A stretch of DNA of 20,864 nt, from NCBI GenBank assembly GCA_005223085.1, contig NJBP01000040.1, positions 1 through 20,864 of the forward strand. The letters run 5' to 3'. Under the pieces are notes generated by a model, which saw only the letters and a program-made list of their open reading frames with translations, had not been told where the DNA came from and did not search any database. The DNA is from Candidatus Aerophobetes bacterium Ae_b3b (lineage in GTDB: Bacteria; Aerophobota; Aerophobia; Aerophobales; AE-B3A). The number at the start of each line of letters is the position of its first letter. The first letter of the stretch is position 1. The translations under genes and the position numbers were made by a program. Of the stretch, positions 10,817 through 20,568 are shown in pieces.

Positions 10817-11427
10817 ATGAAGAAGAAAGAACTCCGGAATAACGCCATAAGCAGTGATTATAATACTCAACTATAGCTTATCTTGTTCCCAGCATAACCA
10901 ATCCCTTTTTGTCTGAGATAGCAAGCTCTATCGAAGATCTTGCTTCATCTCACGAATGTAACTTGATACTGTGCAATGCAGGTACAAAAGCCGACAAGTT
11001 AAGGAAAATAACCGCTATGCTTCTGGAACACAGGGTAGCAGGTGTAATACATTCTCTACCCAGTACGGATGCTCTATTTAACCTCGTAGAAATTTTTCAA
11101 AACACACACATTCCTATTGTTGCCGCTAGTGGTTCTCGCAGATTTCCAGAAGTGGACATGGTAATGGCAGATGATGTACAGGGTGCGCGGGATGCCGCTC
11201 GATTCCTTATAGAGCTTGGTCACTCCCGCATTGCACTTCTTGCTGTTAAAAACAGTGCTACCAGTAAGCGAAGGACTCAGAGGTACAGAGAGGCCTTTCG
11301 ACAAACAAGATGTAAACTGCATGAAGAGTGCGTTGTGGAAGGTCCTGGTTTCAGTGAAGACTCCGGATATACCCTTATGAAAGTCCTTCTCGACAGCTCG
11401 ACCTCCTACAAGGTAGCTAGAGCTTAG
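10817..11427 (+). pseudogene. LacI-family transcriptional regulator, remnant lacking DNA-binding domain and C-terminus
   Basis: Intact LacI-type regulators have an N-terminal helix-turn-helix, a hinge, and a sugar-binding domain of about 270 residues. Here an ATG at 10817 with a good AGGAAGG site starts MKKKEL but stops after 19 codons without any helix-turn-helix. In another frame, from 10864, the sugar-binding domain begins with the textbook STIAYLVPSITNPFLSEIA, followed by NLILCNA, HRVAGVIHS, DDVQGARDAARFLIELGHSRIALL and RYREAFR. It then ends at VARA in place of the expected PTA(I/V)FAANDLMA region, so about 90 residues are missing. An internal deletion plus a C-terminal loss explains both ends. 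A shortened product from TTG 10909 could be made but could not bind DNA through this fold. It precedes the transporter genes and was probably their repressor. Confidence 0.8.
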
Positions 11428-11530
11428 ATTAAGAAGAGGAGCAATTAAGAGATGAGGCCGGGAATTAGAGTCAAGAAGAAGTGAGAAAGTACAGAAGAAA
11501 GCAAGCCGGGTGTTTAGAAAGGAAGAGGTC

Positions 11531-12388
11531 GTGTTAAGAAGAAAACCTTTAATCTTTTTATTAGTCATCCCATTCTTGTTTTTCATCCTAAGCCATACAA
11601 TTCCGTTTTTTTATGGAATTGGCCTATCATTTTATGATTGGAGAGAAAACTTCGTAGGTTTTACTAATTATCTATCCGTTTTCAATGACGCTATGTTTTG
11701 GGATTCCCTAAAGTTTACTTTCATCTATGCGGTGGTTGTTGCTGGCGCCATGACCTTTTTCGGCTTATTCTTCGGTATTTTTATTAATCATCTTGGAAGA
11801 GGACAAATGTTGGTCAAATCAGTCCTTTTGATCCCTTGGGCTATTTCACTTACAGCTTGGGGTTTACTGGGCCAAATTGCTCTTAGCAGGCAGTTTGGCG
11901 TGGTAAATGATGTTCTTGTGCGTTTAGGTATTCTGGAAAGTAGACTAGCCTGGCTTGGCGACCCTACTCTGGCGAAAATTTCGGTAATGCTTTCCCGAAT
12001 ATCCAAAGACGTCTGGTTCAGTGCTTTATTATTTTTAGTCGCCCGGCAAACGATTCCCTCAGAGCTCTATGATGAGAGCAAGGTTTGCGGAGCAGGGCCA
12101 TGGCAAACCCTTTGCTATGTCACGCTTCCTATGTTAAAACCAACTATGCTATTTGTAACTACAATACTTTTCATCTTCGCTTTACAGGAGTTTGACCTGG
12201 TATTCGCCTTAACTCGGGGTGGGCCTGGATTTGCCACTGAAGTTGCCTCGATTAACATATTTCGCCACGGTGTCCGCTATGGGAATTATGAGTACGGAAC
12301 TGCTGTAGCTGCGGTCTGGAGTTTAATAGTCTCCGTTTTTGTTATCGTAGTTTTTGCACCTTTGCAGAGGAGAATTATGGAAAAATGA
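11531..12388 (+). CDS. Carbohydrate ABC transporter permease, MalF/UgpA type
   Basis: Inner-membrane channel subunit of a sugar importer (CUT1 family). Six transmembrane segments are visible: PLIFLLVIPFLFFILSHTIP, FIYAVVVAGAMTFFGLFFGI, VKSVLLIPWAISLTAWGLLG, the helix around WFSALLFLVARQ, LFVTTILFIFALQEF and TAVAAVWSLIVSVFVIVVF. The EAA loop, which contacts the ATPase, is ELYDESKVCGAGPWQTLCYV followed by TLP. I prefer the GTG at 11531 because AAGGA lies 8 nt upstream and the charged start RRKPL leads straight into the first helix. An in-frame GTG at 11510 adds 7 residues but has no ribosome binding site. The stop overlaps the next start as ATGA, so the two permeases are translationally coupled. 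Confidence 0.92.
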   Translation: MLRRKPLIFLLVIPFLFFILSHTIPFFYGIGLSFYDWRENFVGFTNYLSVFNDAMFWDSLKFTFIYAVVVAGAMTFFGLFFGIFINHLGRGQMLVKSVLLIPWAISLTAWGLLGQIALSRQFGVVNDVLVRLGILESRLAWLGDPTLAKISVMLSRISKDVWFSALLFLVARQTIPSELYDESKVCGAGPWQTLCYVTLPMLKPTMLFVTTILFIFALQEFDLVFALTRGGPGFATEVASINIFRHGVRYGNYEYGTAVAAVWSLIVSVFVIVVFAPLQRRIMEK

Positions 12389-13215
12389 AGAGGTTGAAGT
12401 CAGGAGATGTATTAAGGTTATTGGGAATAATAGTAGTTGTTTCTCTTGCCTTTGTTCCGATTTACTGGATGCTTAATGTCTCTCTTTTACCGGAGACAGA
12501 AGTAATAAGGACCAGTCCTCATTATTATCCTCCTCCTGGTATACTAACTCTCGAAGCTTATAAAGAGATCCTAACCGAGTACTCGGTTTTCACTTATATA
12601 CTAAATTCGATCATAATTTGTTTTCTAGCTACTGTGGTAACGCTTCTTTTAAGCTTTTCTATAGCTTATAGTATCGCCAAACATGATTTCAAATTAAAAA
12701 AATATGTATACTATGGGATAATATGGTTACTTGCTCTTCCCTGGGTAGTTTATGTCCTTCCCATTTTCAAGATAGTCAGTGGTTTGGGTTTGTTAGATAC
12801 CCATATTCTTATGATAATGCTGTATGGATTTAGCGGAATACCACTTTTTTCCTGGTTCGCCTTACCCTTCATGCATACTTTTCCAAATGAGTTAATTGAT
12901 GCGGGAAGATTGGACGGATGTAGTGAATGGGGTGTAGTATGGAGAATCGTGATGCCTTCATTGAAAAATGCTCTCATAGCACTTTTTATCCTAAGATTTG
13001 TTTGGGCTTACAATGATCTTCTTTATTCGCTGTCTTTCACTTTTCACAGAGCAAAAATGATAATGCCGGCTTTATTGGAATTCCCGGGTCTTTATGAGAT
13101 GCCTTACGCAAAAATGGCAGCGGGAGGGCTCTTAGCAATGCTTCCCATCCTTTTGATTGTGGTCATATTTCAAAAATATGTAGTTAGCGGCCTAACGGGA
13201 AGAACTCTGAAGTAA
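12385..13215 (+). CDS. Carbohydrate ABC transporter permease, MalG/UgpE type
   Basis: Second channel subunit, 276 residues, partner of the preceding permease, with which it shares an ATGA overlap. Six hydrophobic segments are visible: IIVVVSLAFVPIYWMLNVSL, SIIICFLATVVTLLLSFSIA, IIWLLALPWVVYVLPIF, ILMIMLYGFSGIPLFSWFAL, LIALFILRFVWAYNDLLY and GGLLAMLPILLIVVIF. The EAA loop is PNELIDAGRLDGCSEWGVVW followed by RIVMPSLKNAL, a good match to the MalG group. No ATPase gene is in the window, so the pair probably uses a shared MsmX/MalK-type ATPase encoded elsewhere. The solute-binding protein gene follows 201 nt later, behind a structured leader. Confidence 0.93.
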   Translation: MKRLKSGDVLRLLGIIVVVSLAFVPIYWMLNVSLLPETEVIRTSPHYYPPPGILTLEAYKEILTEYSVFTYILNSIIICFLATVVTLLLSFSIAYSIAKHDFKLKKYVYYGIIWLLALPWVVYVLPIFKIVSGLGLLDTHILMIMLYGFSGIPLFSWFALPFMHTFPNELIDAGRLDGCSEWGVVWRIVMPSLKNALIALFILRFVWAYNDLLYSLSFTFHRAKMIMPALLEFPGLYEMPYAKMAAGGLLAMLPILLIVVIFQKYVVSGLTGRTLK

Positions 13216-13416: not shown

Positions 13417-14688
13417 ATGTTTAAAAAAATAATGGTGGGAATGGCAGCCGCAGTAATCCTGGGAGTAGTCGCGCAGGGAGTGATGGCGGCCAAGATTGTA
13501 TTCTACACCCCATCTTGGGGAGTAGAATACGCAGAGCAGATAATTGCTCTGTTTGAAAAAGAAAAGCCAGATGTGAAAGTTGATCTGATACGAGGACCAT
13601 CAACCTGGGACGATCACGTTGCCAGAACTTCCCTTTGGATAAGGACGAAATACCCTGGTGTGGACGTACTATACGAAGATGATGTATTTGCACTGAACGG
13701 AGCCTATTTTGGCGTGTGGGAGGATCTGACGCCCTACCTTTCGGAGGAAGAAAAAGCAGATCTTATAGGCCTACAGAAAGAGTATGCACGGAGACACGGA
13801 GGGATATACCGAATCCCCTGGTGGAATGGTATGAGCTATATGTATTACCGCAAAGATTTATTGGCAAAAGAGGGTGTTACTGTACCAGATACTTGGGATG
13901 AGTTTCTGGAAGTAGGCAAACGGTTGACCAGGGACTTGAACGGGGATGGGGAAATAGATCAGTGGGGATATGTGACCCAGGGAACACCGGGCGAAATGTA
14001 CAACAATTTCATGGAGTTTCTCTATCAAACAGGGGCAGAGGAATGGGAGTTAGCCCGTGAGGGCCAGTCTGTACCGGAAGCCAAAAAAGGCTTGGAGTTT
14101 ATGGTTGAGGTGTACACAACCATCGCACCGGGTGCCCTATCGGCCATTGGCTATGACGAGAGCAGGGCGTTATTCAGAGAAGGTAAGGTAGCCATGCTTC
14201 GAGATTGGGCCGACATGGGATTAATTGCACCGCAAGAAGGGCTGACAGACGTAATTGGTGTTATGAATTTTCCAGCCGGTCCGGCCGGACCATATGGAAT
14301 TGGTCATTGCTGGGGCGCTGTGGTTAATAAATATGGAGCTGCCTTCAAAAAGAATAAAGATGTGGTAATAGATTTTGCGAAATTCATGATTAGACCCGAA
14401 ATCCATAAGATAACGGCTGTAATGGAAGGACCGGCACTCAAATCCGTACTTGGGGACCAGAAATTCATGCAGGAATTAGCAGAACGTAACATTGTTACGC
14501 CTTACTTTGAAGAATTCTTAAAATTCAGAAGAGTAAGGAATTTTCCACCTGGGAAAGCGACCGAGTATCACGAGGGTATCGGAAGAATGGTTACCAAGAC
14601 TGCAATTACCGGGGAGCTAACAGTTGAGAAGGGGCTGCTTGAAATACAAAAGTGGATCGACCCATTAATAGCAGAATTCAAAAAATAA
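13417..14688 (+). CDS. Extracellular solute-binding protein of a sugar ABC transporter (family 1)
   Basis: Secreted or periplasmic receptor that delivers a carbohydrate to the two permeases encoded just upstream. The 423 residues begin with a signal peptide (MFKKIMVGMAAAVILGVVAQ, then GVMA) with cleavage likely after Ala24 or Ala25; no lipobox Cys is present. The mature part starts KIVFYTPSWG and has family-1 features: EQIIALFEKEKPDVKVDLI, RIPWWNGMSYMYYRKDLL, VPDTWDEFLEVGKRL, and DLNGDGEIDQWGY. The start is fixed by AAGGAG 6 nt upstream. The ligand cannot be read from sequence; the downstream MelA-type enzyme suggests an alpha-galactoside or related sugar. Unlike the more usual order, the binding protein follows the permeases. 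Confidence 0.93.
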   Translation: MFKKIMVGMAAAVILGVVAQGVMAAKIVFYTPSWGVEYAEQIIALFEKEKPDVKVDLIRGPSTWDDHVARTSLWIRTKYPGVDVLYEDDVFALNGAYFGVWEDLTPYLSEEEKADLIGLQKEYARRHGGIYRIPWWNGMSYMYYRKDLLAKEGVTVPDTWDEFLEVGKRLTRDLNGDGEIDQWGYVTQGTPGEMYNNFMEFLYQTGAEEWELAREGQSVPEAKKGLEFMVEVYTTIAPGALSAIGYDESRALFREGKVAMLRDWADMGLIAPQEGLTDVIGVMNFPAGPAGPYGIGHCWGAVVNKYGAAFKKNKDVVIDFAKFMIRPEIHKITAVMEGPALKSVLGDQKFMQELAERNIVTPYFEEFLKFRRVRNFPPGKATEYHEGIGRMVTKTAITGELTVEKGLLEIQKWIDPLIAEFKK

Positions 14689-15066: not shown

Positions 15067-16147
15067 ATGAACCCCAGGGAGAGAGTATTGAGTGCAATAA
15101 GCAGAAAGAGGCTGGATCGAATCCCTTGTGATTATTGGGGCACCCAGGAAGTTACCGATAGGCTGAAAAAATATTTTGGTGTAGAGGAAGACCTGGGTTT
15201 ATGGAAAAAACTGGGGATTGACAAAATTATACATCTGACTCCGCCTCCTCTGTGGGTACCCGTCTCTCACCACTATATTGGCCCTTCTCTCTCGGATAAC
15301 GAGGATGTGTGGGGGGTGAAATTTAAACCTCGGTCTTATGCTGATGGAGCGGGAATCTATCAGGAGATATGCTATAATCCATTGGCGGATAGGGAAACTA
15401 TTGAAGAGATAGAAACCAATTATACTTTTCCGAAGGTAGATTGGTTTGACTTTTCCACTATCGAGGAGGAATGTCGCAAGTATCCTGAATACGCTATTGA
15501 GTGTGGATACGCGGCTCCTTTCTTTATTTACAACAATATCCGAGGATTGGAAAAGTCCCTTATGGCACCTGGCTAACAACCAAGAGTATGCTCACTATGT
15601 TATTGATAAAATCTGTGACTTCTTGTATTCTTTCCACCAGAGACTGTTCGAGGCCGGAAGTGGCTTAATAGACATTGCCGAAGTTACCGATGATTTTGGA
15701 ACTCAATCAGGGCTCATGATCAGTGGGGAAATGTTCGGTGAGTTCTTCGAAACTCATTATCAACGTCTTATCAAATTAGTAAAGGATTTTGGCATAAAGG
15801 TGTTTCATCACGATGATGGAGCCATAAGACCTCTAATTTCCAAACTAGTAAAGTTAGGGATAGAGGTGCTCAATCCTATACAGTGGAAACTGCCAGGGAT
15901 GGATCTCAAGGAGTTAAAGAAAAGCTTCGGTGAGGTGCTATGTTTTCATGGAGGAGTTGATAACCAAAAGACTCTTCCTTTCGGAGACCGTAAGGACGTT
16001 GAAAGGGAGGTTATCCATCTTCTAGACACCCTAGCCTCCAATGGAACCGGCTATATTTTGGCTCCCTGCCATAATATTCAACCAATTACACCGGTCGGGA
16101 ACATCATAACCATGTATGAGACTGTTCACCATTATGGGGTCCTTTAA
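15067..16147 (+). pseudogene. URO-D-like protein 1, broken by a 1-nt insertion
   Basis: Uroporphyrinogen-decarboxylase superfamily (COG0407-like), a TIM-barrel group that includes heme-pathway decarboxylases and the methylcobamide:CoM methyltransferases MtaA/MtbA. The first frame (15067-15576) runs from MNPRERVLSAI through RLDRIPCDYW to RGLEKSLM and then stops after APG. The +1 frame continues with LANNQEYAHYVIDKI to the end. Removing one base near 15565-15566 (ATGGCACCTG to ATGGACCTG) restores SLMDLANNQEY and a 359-residue protein colinear with URO-D-like 3. The repaired protein has VTDDFGTQ, VFHHDDGAI, NPIQWK, CFHGGVDNQ and ILAPCHNIQ. True mutation and sequencing error cannot be told apart here. 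It is not the heme enzyme: it sits in a sugar cluster and lacks heme-gene neighbours. Confidence 0.82.
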
Positions 16148-16165
16148 CATTTTTTGGAGAATAAT

Positions 16166-17215
16166 ATGCTAACACCCCGCGAAAGAATAATGCAGGTGCT
16201 GCGCAGACAACTTCCAGACCGTGTTCCACTTGGAGCATACTCTTTTTTACTTCCTCGTGGTACTGCGGAGCGTAAGGTAAGAGAAAAGGGATGTGGGATT
16301 GTTCACTTTGAGAGAGTTTATGCCACTGAAATGCAAAATGTAGAAATCAGCACTAAAGAAAAATGGGAAAATAATGAGAAAACTACCATCCACATCTATC
16401 GTACTCCCCTGGGAGATCTTTATGAGAAGACAAAGTTAGACCCGGGGTACCGTAGTCAGTGGACAAAAGAATTTATGATAAAGAAGCCTTCTGATTATCG
16501 TATCGCAAAATACATTATAGAAAATACCGTCTATCATCAGAATTATGAGTTTTTTGTAGAAGTGGAGAAAAATATCGGAGAGGATGGCATCTTGATAGCC
16601 AATATGGACCGAACTCCTCTACAGAGAACATTGATAGAGTTAACCGGAACTGAGAGATTATGCATAGATTTATATGAAAGAGCAGATATAATGGAGGAAT
16701 TTTTCGATTCTTTACGGAAGAAGCAAGACGAGATGTATCAAATAGCGGCTGATTCACCAGCACAGATTATCCATAATTGGGACAATCTTACTGAGGATAT
16801 AACGGAGCCCCGATTGTTTCAAAAATACTGTCTTCCTCTCTATAACAAATATGGACATCTGCTCCATGAGAGAGGTAAGATATATGTAGTACACATGGAT
16901 GGCAAACTATATCATCTAAAGAATTTGATCAAAAAAGCAGAAATTGATGTTATTGAATCCTTTACTCTGCCAGGTGCTGGTGGAAATCTTTCCCTACAAG
17001 AGGCAAAAGATGTGTGGAAAAATAAGACTATAGTAGCAAATTTACCCGCCTTTCTCTGCTATAAAGATGAAGAGTTTATAAAAAGATTTATTCGAGACCT
17101 CCTGATCCAGGTTCCCAAAGAGCGATTTATGCTTGATGTTAGTGAGGATCTACCTCAAAAATTCTGGAGACGAACCTTGCCTATTGTGGCAGATGCTATG
17201 CAGATGTATGGATAA
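16166..17215 (+). CDS. URO-D-like protein 2, divergent
   Basis: The 349-residue member of the URO-D superfamily begins LTPRERIMQVLRRQLPDRVP, the usual family opening. I place the start at ATG 16166, with GGAGA 6 nt upstream; an in-frame TTG at 16154 would overlap that ribosome binding site. It lies 18 nt after gene 1. It is much more distant from its two neighbours than they are from each other. It keeps the central VVHMDGK (242-247), where the others have FHHxDGA. It lacks the C-terminal ILAPCHNIQ; the equivalent stretch reads FMLDVSEDLPQ, with no cysteine. A different substrate, or a partner rather than an equivalent enzyme, is likely. Reaction unknown. Confidence 0.87.
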   Translation: MLTPRERIMQVLRRQLPDRVPLGAYSFLLPRGTAERKVREKGCGIVHFERVYATEMQNVEISTKEKWENNEKTTIHIYRTPLGDLYEKTKLDPGYRSQWTKEFMIKKPSDYRIAKYIIENTVYHQNYEFFVEVEKNIGEDGILIANMDRTPLQRTLIELTGTERLCIDLYERADIMEEFFDSLRKKQDEMYQIAADSPAQIIHNWDNLTEDITEPRLFQKYCLPLYNKYGHLLHERGKIYVVHMDGKLYHLKNLIKKAEIDVIESFTLPGAGGNLSLQEAKDVWKNKTIVANLPAFLCYKDEEFIKRFIRDLLIQVPKERFMLDVSEDLPQKFWRRTLPIVADAMQMYG

Positions 17216-17242
17216 TCATGTTTTTAGAGGAGGAGTCGAGTC

Positions 17243-18334
17243 ATGCCTAAGGAATCTATGACCTCAAGAGAACGTTGGCTTGCGGTACTTAACCATCAGA
17301 AGCCAGACCGCATCCCGATGGACTACTGGGCTACTCCCGAGGCTACCAAAAAGCTTATGAAGTATCTACGCTGTGATAGTGAGGAATCCTTATTTAACCG
17401 TCTGCACATTGATCCAGTTACTACTGTATGGCCAAAGTACATTGGTCCTCCAGAACGGGCTGGTTTCATGGAACCCCCCGTTGGTAGTGACAAAAATATA
17501 GATATATTTGGTTGTGGTTTTAAAGAGATGAGTTATGGAGTCGGCGTGTATGAAGAGTGTATCCATCATCCCTTGGCTGAATATGAAACCCTGGAAGAAA
17601 TAATGCATAATTACCGATGGCCCAGTCCTGATTGGTATGATTATTCTGTCATTCCCAGCCAGATTATGGGAAAAGAGAAATACCCAATTCAGTGTTACGG
17701 CTCGGAACCCGGATGGAAATACGCCCATTTAAGAGGTCATGAACAAGCCCTTATCGATTTTGTTCTTCATCCTGAGATCGCACATTACTGCATCGATGAA
17801 ATTTTTGATTTCTGTCATGAGGTAACGCGTCGTATTTATGAGACAATTCCCGACCGAGTTGATCTTACCTATGTAACAGAAGATTTTGGAAGCCAGGAAA
17901 GCTTGATGTATTCACCGGACCTAATTCGTGATTTTTTTATTCCGGGGATGAAGCGGATGATAAATCTTGCTCATGAGACCGGCTCTTTTGTTTTCCATCA
18001 TAGCGACGGCGCTATTCGAGAAATAATCCCTGAGATGGTCAAAGCTGGTATAGATATCCTGAATCCTATTCAATGGCGGTGTAAGGGAATGGAACGGGAG
18101 GCTCTTAAACGCGACTTCGGTGACGAAATAGTCTTTCATGGAGCTATGGATAATCAATACACTTTAGCATTTGGATCTATAAAAGAGGTCCACCGGGAAG
18201 CGTTGGACAACCTCCGTATTTTAGGAAAAGGAGGGGGCTATATCCTTGCTCCCTGTCATAATATTCAGGTAGCTAGTCCTCCGGAAAACATTGTAACTAT
18301 GTATGAGACTGGCTGTGGAAATGGCTGGTATTAA
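17243..18334 (+). CDS. URO-D-like protein 3, close paralogue of protein 1
   Basis: The 363-residue URO-D superfamily protein starts at 17243, with GGAGGAG about 8 nt upstream. Family features are RERWLAVLNHQKPDRIPMDYW, YVTEDFGSQESLMYS (210-224), FVFHHSDGAIREI (249-261), NPIQWR, VFHGAMDNQ and GYILAPCHNIQ (332-342, Cys338). In the methyltransferase branch, a His-x-Cys plus a late Cys bind the zinc that activates the methyl acceptor. Here His252 or His251 with Asp254 and the late Cys338 could be a variant metal site; that is inference. It is colinear with the repaired gene 1 almost throughout and differs at the extreme C-terminus (GCGNGWY against VHHYGVL). Part of the tandem set leading into the GH4 gene. 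Confidence 0.9.
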   Translation: MPKESMTSRERWLAVLNHQKPDRIPMDYWATPEATKKLMKYLRCDSEESLFNRLHIDPVTTVWPKYIGPPERAGFMEPPVGSDKNIDIFGCGFKEMSYGVGVYEECIHHPLAEYETLEEIMHNYRWPSPDWYDYSVIPSQIMGKEKYPIQCYGSEPGWKYAHLRGHEQALIDFVLHPEIAHYCIDEIFDFCHEVTRRIYETIPDRVDLTYVTEDFGSQESLMYSPDLIRDFFIPGMKRMINLAHETGSFVFHHSDGAIREIIPEMVKAGIDILNPIQWRCKGMEREALKRDFGDEIVFHGAMDNQYTLAFGSIKEVHREALDNLRILGKGGGYILAPCHNIQVASPPENIVTMYETGCGNGWY

Positions 18335-18351
18335 TGTAAAACTTTGCCAAT

Positions 18352-18402
18352 AACTTAAAAATCATGGATGAGGCTGTTCACCATGGAGGTAAAAATGCCT
18401 AA
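18352..18402 (+). other. Possible remnant of another URO-D-like 3' end before melA
   Basis: Between URO-D-like 3 and melA, one frame reads [15 protein letters not shown] and stop. This resembles the C-terminus of protein 1 (IITMYETVHHYGVL), and the bases GAGGCTGTTCACCATGG match GAGACTGTTCACCATTATGG there. It overlaps the melA start as stop codons of coupled upstream genes often do. Protein 3 may have lost this original tail, or a further copy was deleted. Short, so tentative. Confidence 0.3.
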
Positions 18403-19717
18403 AATCACATTTATAGGAGCAGGGAGCTTCGAATTTACGAGACGTCTGGTGCGGGATATTCTCTCGTTTCCTGCCCTTGCCGACAGTACTATAGTACTTA
18501 TGGACATCGATGATGAACGTCTTTCTTTCATCAAGGCCGCGGTAGATAAGATAGTTACTGCGGGAAATTATCCGGCAAAAGTAGTTGCCACCAAAGATAG
18601 AGTTGAGGCGCTCAAGGGAGCGGATGGAGTAGTTTGCACAATCCTTGTCGGTGGCGTTCAGGTATGGCGTACGGATATAGAAATCCCCAAAAAGTATGGA
18701 GTTGATATAAACGTCGGTGATACCAGAGGCCCGGCCGGGATTTTCAGGGCTCTCAGAGCCATACCAGTAATGCTTGACATTTGCAAAGACATAGAGCGTT
18801 ACTGCCCGGAGGCTATTTTCCTCAACTACACCAACCCCATGGGTATGCTTTGTCGGGCAATGCAAAGCCAGAGCAAAGTCAAAGTAACTGGTCTTTGCCA
18901 CAGCGTCCAGGGTACAGCTGAGATGCTGGCCCGATGGATAGGTGCCCCTATGGAAGAGATTACATACCTTTGTGCCGGCCTAAACCACCAAGCGTGGTTT
19001 CTTGAGTTCAAATGGGATGGTAAAGACACCTACCCTCTTATTAGAGAAGCCATTAAGAGACCTGAGATTTACGATGAAGAGCAGGTGAGAAATGAAATGT
19101 TTCTCCATCTGGATTACTACGTCACCGAGTCCAGCGGCCACAGCTCGGAATACATTCCGTGGTTTAGAAAAAGACCAGATCTCATAGAGAAATACTGCAC
19201 GCATAGCACTGGCTGGAATCCCGGAGAATATGCGTTTATCCTAAAGGAATATTTGAGAAGAGAGAATACCTGGAAATCTGAAGTAAAGGAATGGCTTGGG
19301 AAACCATCAATGGACCTAAAAAGAGGTAAAGAATATGCAGCAAGCATTTTCAATGCCACAATTGGAAATGGAACTCTATACGAGTTTAACGGAAATGTCA
19401 GAAACTTTGGCCTTATAGACAATCTTCCCGAAGGCTGCTGTGTTGAAGTACCAGTGGTTGCCTCCAAGCATGGATTTAACCCTATTTGTGTAGGTCCGCT
19501 GCCGCCACAGCTTGCTATTCTCAACAATATCAATGCCAGATGCGAAGAGCTAGCAGTGGAGGGTGCTACTACCGGTGATGCAAGAATGATATTCCATGCA
19601 ATTTGTTTTGATCCCTTGACGTCCGCCGTTCTAAGCCTTGCCGAAATAAAAAAGATGGTAAGAGAGATGTTCGAGACAAACAAAAACCGACTGCCTCAAT
19701 TTAGACATTTTTCTTAG
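18395..19717 (+). CDS. melA: Glycoside hydrolase family 4, alpha-galactosidase (MelA) type
   Basis: GH4 enzymes cleave glycosides by an oxidation-elimination route that needs NAD+ and a divalent metal, usually Mn. The 440-residue protein has the N-terminal dinucleotide fold ([22 protein letters not shown]), NYTNPMGM, the metal and specificity motif CHSVQGT (Cys168, His169), AGLNHQAWF (His198), [13 protein letters not shown] and [27 protein letters not shown] and VTES(S)xH match E. coli MelA as I recall it; phospho-glucosidases and glucuronidases of the family differ at this site. I place the start at 18395, where GGAGG lies 5 nt upstream and the fold begins at once; in-frame ATGs at 18368 and 18383 add only unlikely residues. 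The product should be cytoplasmic, acting on imported sugar. Exact substrate is unproven. Confidence 0.92.
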
Positions 19718-20076: not shown

Positions 20077-20568
20077 ATGGAGTTTAGAACACTTGAAGGA
20101 ACTGGACTTAAAGTCTCTGTAGTTGGATTTGGTGGATGGGCCATTGGCGGCGGGTACAATATCAATGGCAATCCCATAGGTTATGGTAAAACAGATGACT
20201 TTGAATCTCTTGCTGCTATAGAAAAGGCCATTGATATTGGTATTAACCTAATCGATACCGCAGATGCTTATGGTGGGGGTCACAGTGAGTGTCTTATAGG
20301 GCAGGTTCTTCAGGCAAGACATTCAAATTGCTTCGTAGCAACAAAAGTTGGGAACCAGAGGCGCGATCCATTCCCAGCACGGAAGAACTTGGACTATGAT
20401 TATATGGTAATGGCCTGTGAAAGCAGCTTAAGAAGACTTCGCCGAAAGGTTATTGATCTCTATCAATTACATAATCCAAGTATGGCAGTTATCAAAAGTA
20501 ATTCTGTATGGGAAACATTAGTAGATGAGATGTTAAAAGCAGAAGCAAACTACCTGCCAAAGTTTTAA
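20077..20568 (+). pseudogene. Aldo/keto reductase, 3'-truncated
   Basis: NADP-dependent aldo/keto reductases are usually 300-340 residues; this frame ends after 163. The N-terminal half is well preserved: LGGTGLKVS-like opening (LEGTGLKVSVVGFGGWAIGG), IDTADAYGGGHSE with Asp60 and Tyr65, Lys90 in FVATKVG, and His132 in DLYQLHNPS, so the full catalytic tetrad is there. It stops at YLPKF, where the family continues GKIRYxGVS and the cofactor-binding half. Another frame just past the break reads SFKYLGESW, which may be a trace of that motif. Only 26 nt separate it from the end of the convergent aldolase gene, so the missing half was probably lost by recombination there. Start is supported by AAGGAGG 7 nt upstream. 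The barrel cannot close, so activity is doubtful. Confidence 0.8.

Follow-up and report, generated by a model that had tools for sequence, protein, structure and literature searches.

The stretch of DNA analysed here, called the window throughout, is 20,864 nucleotides long and represents one entire contig (C28) of the Candidatus Aerophobetes bacterium Ae_b3b genome, a bin of 2.04 Mb that is 88.6% complete. It carries a cassette encoded entirely on the + strand and composed, in this order, of two CUT1 permeases, a binding protein, three UroD-like proteins (U1, U2 and U3) and a glycoside hydrolase of family GH4 (Table 1). A sequence-only reading had described three tandem UroD-like genes preceded by a sugar ABC transporter and followed by melA. 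Three such genes do lie at the positions where it placed them, but U1 is frameshifted and two are intact. The spacings it gave, 18, 27 and 60 nt, hold when U2 is taken to start at 16166 and GH4 at 18395. The transporter is borne out by the PF00528 permeases and the PF01547 binding protein, and melA by a GH4 product with PF02056/PF11975 that exceeds the PRK15076 cut-off. No heme or corrinoid gene was found in the window.

The open reading frame list places U1 in two frames (15067-15576 and 15446-16147). Its similarity to U3 switches between these frames near 15570, where they are offset by one base, so U1 is either a pseudogene or the product of an assembly error. The frames upstream of the LacI-type remnant (10909-11427) contain stops. 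Because this regulator and the aldo/keto reductase are both truncated and U1 is interrupted, the locus may be decaying, or else contain assembly errors.

Table 1. Features of the window and the evidence for each
Feature	Position	Strand	Evidence and remarks
LacI-type sugar-binding regulator remnant	10909..11427	+	No HTH, C-terminus truncated; PF00532 matched in part
CUT1-type ABC permease 1	11510..12388	+	PF00528
CUT1-type ABC permease 2	12385..13215	+	PF00528
Extracellular sugar-binding protein	13417..14688	+	PF01547/PF13416
U1, UroD-like, frame broken near 15570	15067..16147	+	Two ORFs; HHDDG and APCHN motifs retained
U2, divergent UroD-like	16166..17215 (alternative start 16154)	+	PF01208, 36.5 bits; HMDG, no late Cys-His
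U3, UroD-fold, predicted corrinoid-dependent methyltransferase I	17243..18334	+	PF01208; alignment of 42 orthologs; model
U3 metal motif (predicted), codons H252 H253 S254 D255 G256	17996..18010	+	
U3 late metal motif (predicted), codons C338 H339 N340 I341 Q342	18254..18268	+	
GH4 alpha-galactosidase, MelA type	18395..19717 (alternative start 18368)	+	PF02056/PF11975; PRK15076; CHSVQG motif
Aldo/keto reductase, truncated	20077..20568	+	PF00248 matched at positions 2-116 of 291 only

Families, fold and putative metal site of the UroD-like proteins

Many uncultured anaerobes carry expanded sets of UroD-like genes, which are easily mislabelled as heme enzymes; the source genome alone contains 21 PF01208 matches in 2.04 Mb. 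Curated cut-offs were applied to 19 UroD relatives, namely U2, U3 and 17 paralogs of the same genome, and none of the 19 reached the cut-off for HemE or that for MtaA/CmuA. Against the HemE model (TIGR01464, cut-off 302.95 bits), U3 gave no match at 1e-3 and the best of the 19 reached E 4.1e-13. Against the MtaA/MtbA/CmuA model (TIGR01463, cut-off 235.4 bits), U3 and the C-terminal part of U1 scored below the cut-off, at 46.4 and 47.9 bits, and no protein of the source genome matched with an E-value of 1e-50 or lower. The substrate-binding arginines of the HemE MRQAGR motif are replaced in U3, the aligned stretch reading DYWATPEATK. U3 shares the HemE fold (Z about 26) but differs by the absence of RQAGR, by its sub-threshold score and by a locus that is not a heme locus; the cut-off and the missing motif rule out a heme-pathway enzyme.

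In a 50-row tree whose references were E. coli HemE, CmuA, CmuC and mtaA_cmuA-family proteins, OdmB, VdmB, MtvB and MtoB being left out, U3 and its orthologs form a single clade (support 100/99). U1, represented by the window protein and an intact Chloroflexota protein, is its sister (100/97). U2 groups with an ortholog of 81% identity from genome G015 and with the Chloroflexota U2, far from U1 and U3. By both tree and cut-offs these proteins fall outside the characterised HemE and MtaA/CmuA groups, so that the first refuting condition named by the sequence-only reading does not apply. Judged by U3, the nearest named relatives of the source genome are Candidatus Aerophobetes. At least 80 loci encode a U3 ortholog (52-78% identity), and the taxa concerned include Aerophobetes, Chloroflexi, Armatimonadetes, Latescibacteria, Planctomycetota, Aminicenantes, Bacillota and Bathyarchaeota.

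The predicted model of U3 (pLDDT 93.7) adopts the UroD TIM-barrel fold. In a structure search UroD and MtaA were tied at Z about 26 (25.7 for 4AY7), a tie by which this search cannot tell HemE-like from MtaA-like; CdmB was absent from the structures listed, which carries no weight either way. H253, D255 and G256 are invariant in 42/42 aligned U3 orthologs, and so are C338, H339, N340, I341 and Q342. Of the site residues proposed earlier, Cys338 was right but the histidines and the aspartate were one position off, being His252/His253 and Asp255. In a profile alignment H253 falls on the zinc-binding His of MtaA, D255 on its Cys, and C338/H339 at the third zinc ligand. U1 displays the same letters, His-x-Asp and Cys-His; U2 keeps His-x-Asp only, the late Cys-His being missing. 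The zinc triad of MtaA/CmuA type, His-x-Cys with a late Cys, is absent from both U3 and U1. U3 resembles MtaA/MtbA, the soluble coenzyme M methyltransferases, and the mlp clusters in fold and in weak profile similarity, but it lies far under the curated cut-offs, lacks His-Cys-Cys and occupies a separate clade; the last two features rule out membership of either group. In the O-methyltransferases of the UroD family a carboxylate (Asp or Glu) is reported to replace Cys in the metal site (PMC10418091). As judged from its residues, the His-x-Asp plus Cys-His arrangement of U3 is a putative metal site of this carboxylate type, with D255 standing for Cys as in those enzymes (PMC10418091; PMC13222342).

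Association with sugar importers and glycosidases

A same-strand ABC permease lies within 4 kb of 8/15 UroD gene clusters of the source genome, for 1.7 expected (P about 8e-5), and by inspection three further clusters adjoin ribose-type transporters. The linkage extends beyond this genome. In two Anaerolineae loci (L206 and L227) a single strand encodes a binding protein, permeases, a UroD-like protein, U1, U2, a UroD, another UroD-like protein and GH4, some frames of this run being broken. In a Bacillota locus (L266) one strand carries a permease, a binding protein, a second permease, U1 and U2, with a GH106 gene ahead. The importer-U1-U2 order is kept in three phyla, Aerophobota, Chloroflexota (with GH4) and Bacillota, and the U1 and U2 proteins of Aerophobota and Chloroflexota fall in matching clades. 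The sequence-only reading had proposed a search for shared gene order and would have been refuted by a linkage confined to this contig; the sugar linkage in fact recurs on other contigs and in other phyla. It might be objected that numerous UroD paralogs sit beside numerous importers by coincidence, without any shared pathway: the source genome has 96 PF00528 matches and the majority of U3 orthologs stand alone. We consider this very unlikely in view of the permease excess around the UroD clusters, the order kept in three phyla and the matching U1 and U2 clades.

The GH4 protein scores 527 bits against PRK15076, for a cut-off of 486, and is thus of MelA type. It is 43% identical to E. coli MelA and shares its CHSVQGTAE stretch, differing in that it forms a subfamily of its own. 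Among 50 U3-bearing genomes about half encode members of this subfamily (61-75% identity), for the most part not next to U3. GH4 adjoins U3 in the window and in L039, L059, L062, L105 and L106, that is at 6/81 U3 loci belonging to several phyla. As GH4 adjoins so few U3 loci and the importer is conserved with U1/U2 and not with U3, an obligate U3-GH4-importer operon was rejected. The same GH4 subfamily is also found in Bacillota bins (L199, L200 and L202), where reading of the sequences placed it in gnd-zwf operons that include a cyclase-like gene.

Other U1 loci carry GH32, ThuA, Gfo/Idh or rhaM genes. The glycosidases near U1 and U3 vary (GH4, GH36, GH106, GH29, GH32 and GH38) and therefore imply no single substrate; the GH106, GH29, GH32 and GH38 genes led us to drop alpha-galactosides as the sole substrate class. 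Such neighbours raise the question of a reaction on sugars or sugar acids other than methyl transfer, for instance decarboxylation, epimerisation or keto-sugar elimination, for which the UroD fold would have been recruited with incidental corrinoid neighbours. Gfo/Idh/MocA oxidoreductases, xylose-isomerase-like TIM barrels, ThuA, rhaM and glycosidases form a keto-sugar style context, and in U2 the metal site is incomplete. We judge this reading improbable, as U3 itself occurs within corrinoid operons (see below), the HemE RQAGR arginines are replaced and His-x-Asp/Cys-His is positioned at the methyltransferase zinc site. A sugar-acid decarboxylase, one of two functions suggested initially, finds no support: the arginines of HemE are missing, and the putative metal site is of the kind seen in the methyltransferases.

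Candidate corrinoid partners and proposed sugar demethylation

Some U3 orthologs are part of complete operons for corrinoid methyltransfer, one of them with a GH36 melibiase as its neighbour, which to our knowledge is a new observation. A Brocadiaceae locus (L115) reads U3, B12-binding protein, pterin-binding MT2 and RACo; a Latescibacterota locus (L075), U3, corrinoid protein, RACo and a pterin-binding/MTHFR protein; and an Anaerolineae locus (L074), GH36 melibiase, U3, CobW-like protein, a second UroD, corrinoid protein, UroD-like protein, RACo and homocysteine S-methyltransferase. A corrinoid protein follows U3 in L089 and L049, and RACo lies near U3 in three Aerophobota. RACo is found at most 10 kb from U3 in 6/55 genomes, for 0.6 expected (P about 4e-5). 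It is present in 53/56 U3-bearing genomes, leaving three without it, versus 26/55 comparison genomes (Fisher P 4e-8, a test ignoring kinship and lifestyle), an enrichment for which an anaerobic lifestyle as such may instead be responsible. Corrinoid protein, MT2 and activator are co-encoded with a minority of U3 orthologs (L115, L075 and L074), the window not being among them. In about 70 of 80 U3 loci neither corrinoid nor sugar genes were recognised alongside, and a tally of immediate U3 neighbours by family gave no single dominant partner. No corrinoid gene was found beside the U1/U2 importer loci examined; the corrinoid linkage was seen for U3 only.

The sequence-only reading had noted that corrinoid, activator and heme genes are missing and argued from this absence. 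The statement is true of the window, but the argument fails at genome scale: corrinoid proteins are encoded on contigs C67 and C10 of the source genome, which also has three RACo genes outside the window. The C67 protein scores 201-296 bits against U3-linked corrinoid proteins and the C10 protein 116-145 bits. On a third contig a candidate pterin-binding MT2 gene lies directly upstream of a UroD gene followed by ABC permeases (L124:17591-19655, G000:C15), plausibly an MT2-MT1 pair. The C10 contig carries a run (L126, G000:C10, 2755-10926) of importer genes, corrinoid protein, MttB-family methyltransferase, UroD, xylose-isomerase-like TIM barrel and FGGY kinase that, from its gene content, would constitute a second sugar-linked methyl transfer cluster of the same genome.

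Methyl removal from a modified sugar, the other function suggested initially, gains support because U3 orthologs sit in corrinoid methyltransferase operons; the substrate and the activity given below are those we infer. We propose that the cassette serves the catabolism of a methylated sugar or glycoside, the probable substrate being an alpha-galactoside, through corrinoid-dependent O-demethylation with corrinoid partners acting in trans. The CUT1 importer would take the substrate in and the MelA-type GH4 would cut the glycosidic bond using NAD and a metal. The UroD-like proteins would act as methyltransferase I enzymes, in which His253, Asp255 and Cys338/His339 would bind a metal that activates the methyl ether oxygen. 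The methyl group would pass to the cob(I)alamin of a corrinoid protein encoded elsewhere, the closest candidate being that of C67, which RACo would keep active, and a pterin-binding MT2, possibly the C15 candidate, would move it onto tetrahydrofolate. The corrinoid evidence from U3 is carried over to U1 because their clades are sisters and have the site in common, a bridge that is itself presumptive. We hold this proposal with moderate confidence because most U3 orthologs stand alone.

The characterised O-demethylases of the UroD superfamily, MtvB, OdmB, VdmB and MtoB, act on methoxylated aromatics (PMC13222342). Together with the chloromethane enzyme CdmB they belong to the same superfamily as U1-U3, and some U3 orthologs likewise have corrinoid protein, MT2 and activator in their operon. 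Compared by description and not by sequence, these systems differ in that they are known to act on aromatic methyl ethers or chloromethane and not on sugars, and in that the corrinoid partners of the window would act in trans. Their existence raises the prospect of a corrinoid methyltransferase working on a non-sugar donor, either a methoxylated (e.g. aromatic) aglycone released by GH4 or a small osmolyte, the sugar genes merely delivering the glycoside. The corrinoid operons are silent on the substrate, which suits such a donor as well. We nevertheless find it unlikely: polar residues predominate among the invariant positions of U3 (D27, E33, E213, D214, Q218, H299, D303-Q305 and Q342) and the sugar importer linkage is repeated within the source genome and in three phyla.

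Glycans of plants, algae and bacteria commonly contain methylated sugars. The enzymatic sugar demethylation known to us requires oxygen (cytochrome P450). The open-licence literature searched yielded nothing relevant that would tie UroD-like genes to sugars or describe an enzyme for anaerobic sugar demethylation; reports may exist elsewhere. More tentatively than for the window itself, we suggest that corrinoid-dependent O-demethylation of sugars or cyclitols brought in by importers could be widespread among anaerobes of many deep-branching phyla and involve two new UroD-fold sister clades, U1 and U3, with the companion U2. If U1 and U3 were sugar O-demethylases, the methyl groups of buried carbohydrate would enter one-carbon metabolism and a large unnamed part of the UroD superfamily would acquire a testable function. 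Anaerolinea thermolimosa is cultured and carries U3, U1, GH4 and RACo, which makes the idea accessible to laboratory work.

A remote UroD-like family (DW...DWxAWW...DRP) was also encountered, at L074:5038-6120, L105:7357-8403, L206:15050-16138 and L212:6442-7494. The two members scanned had no Pfam match over cut-off, and the family adjoins U1, U3, GH4 or corrinoid genes.
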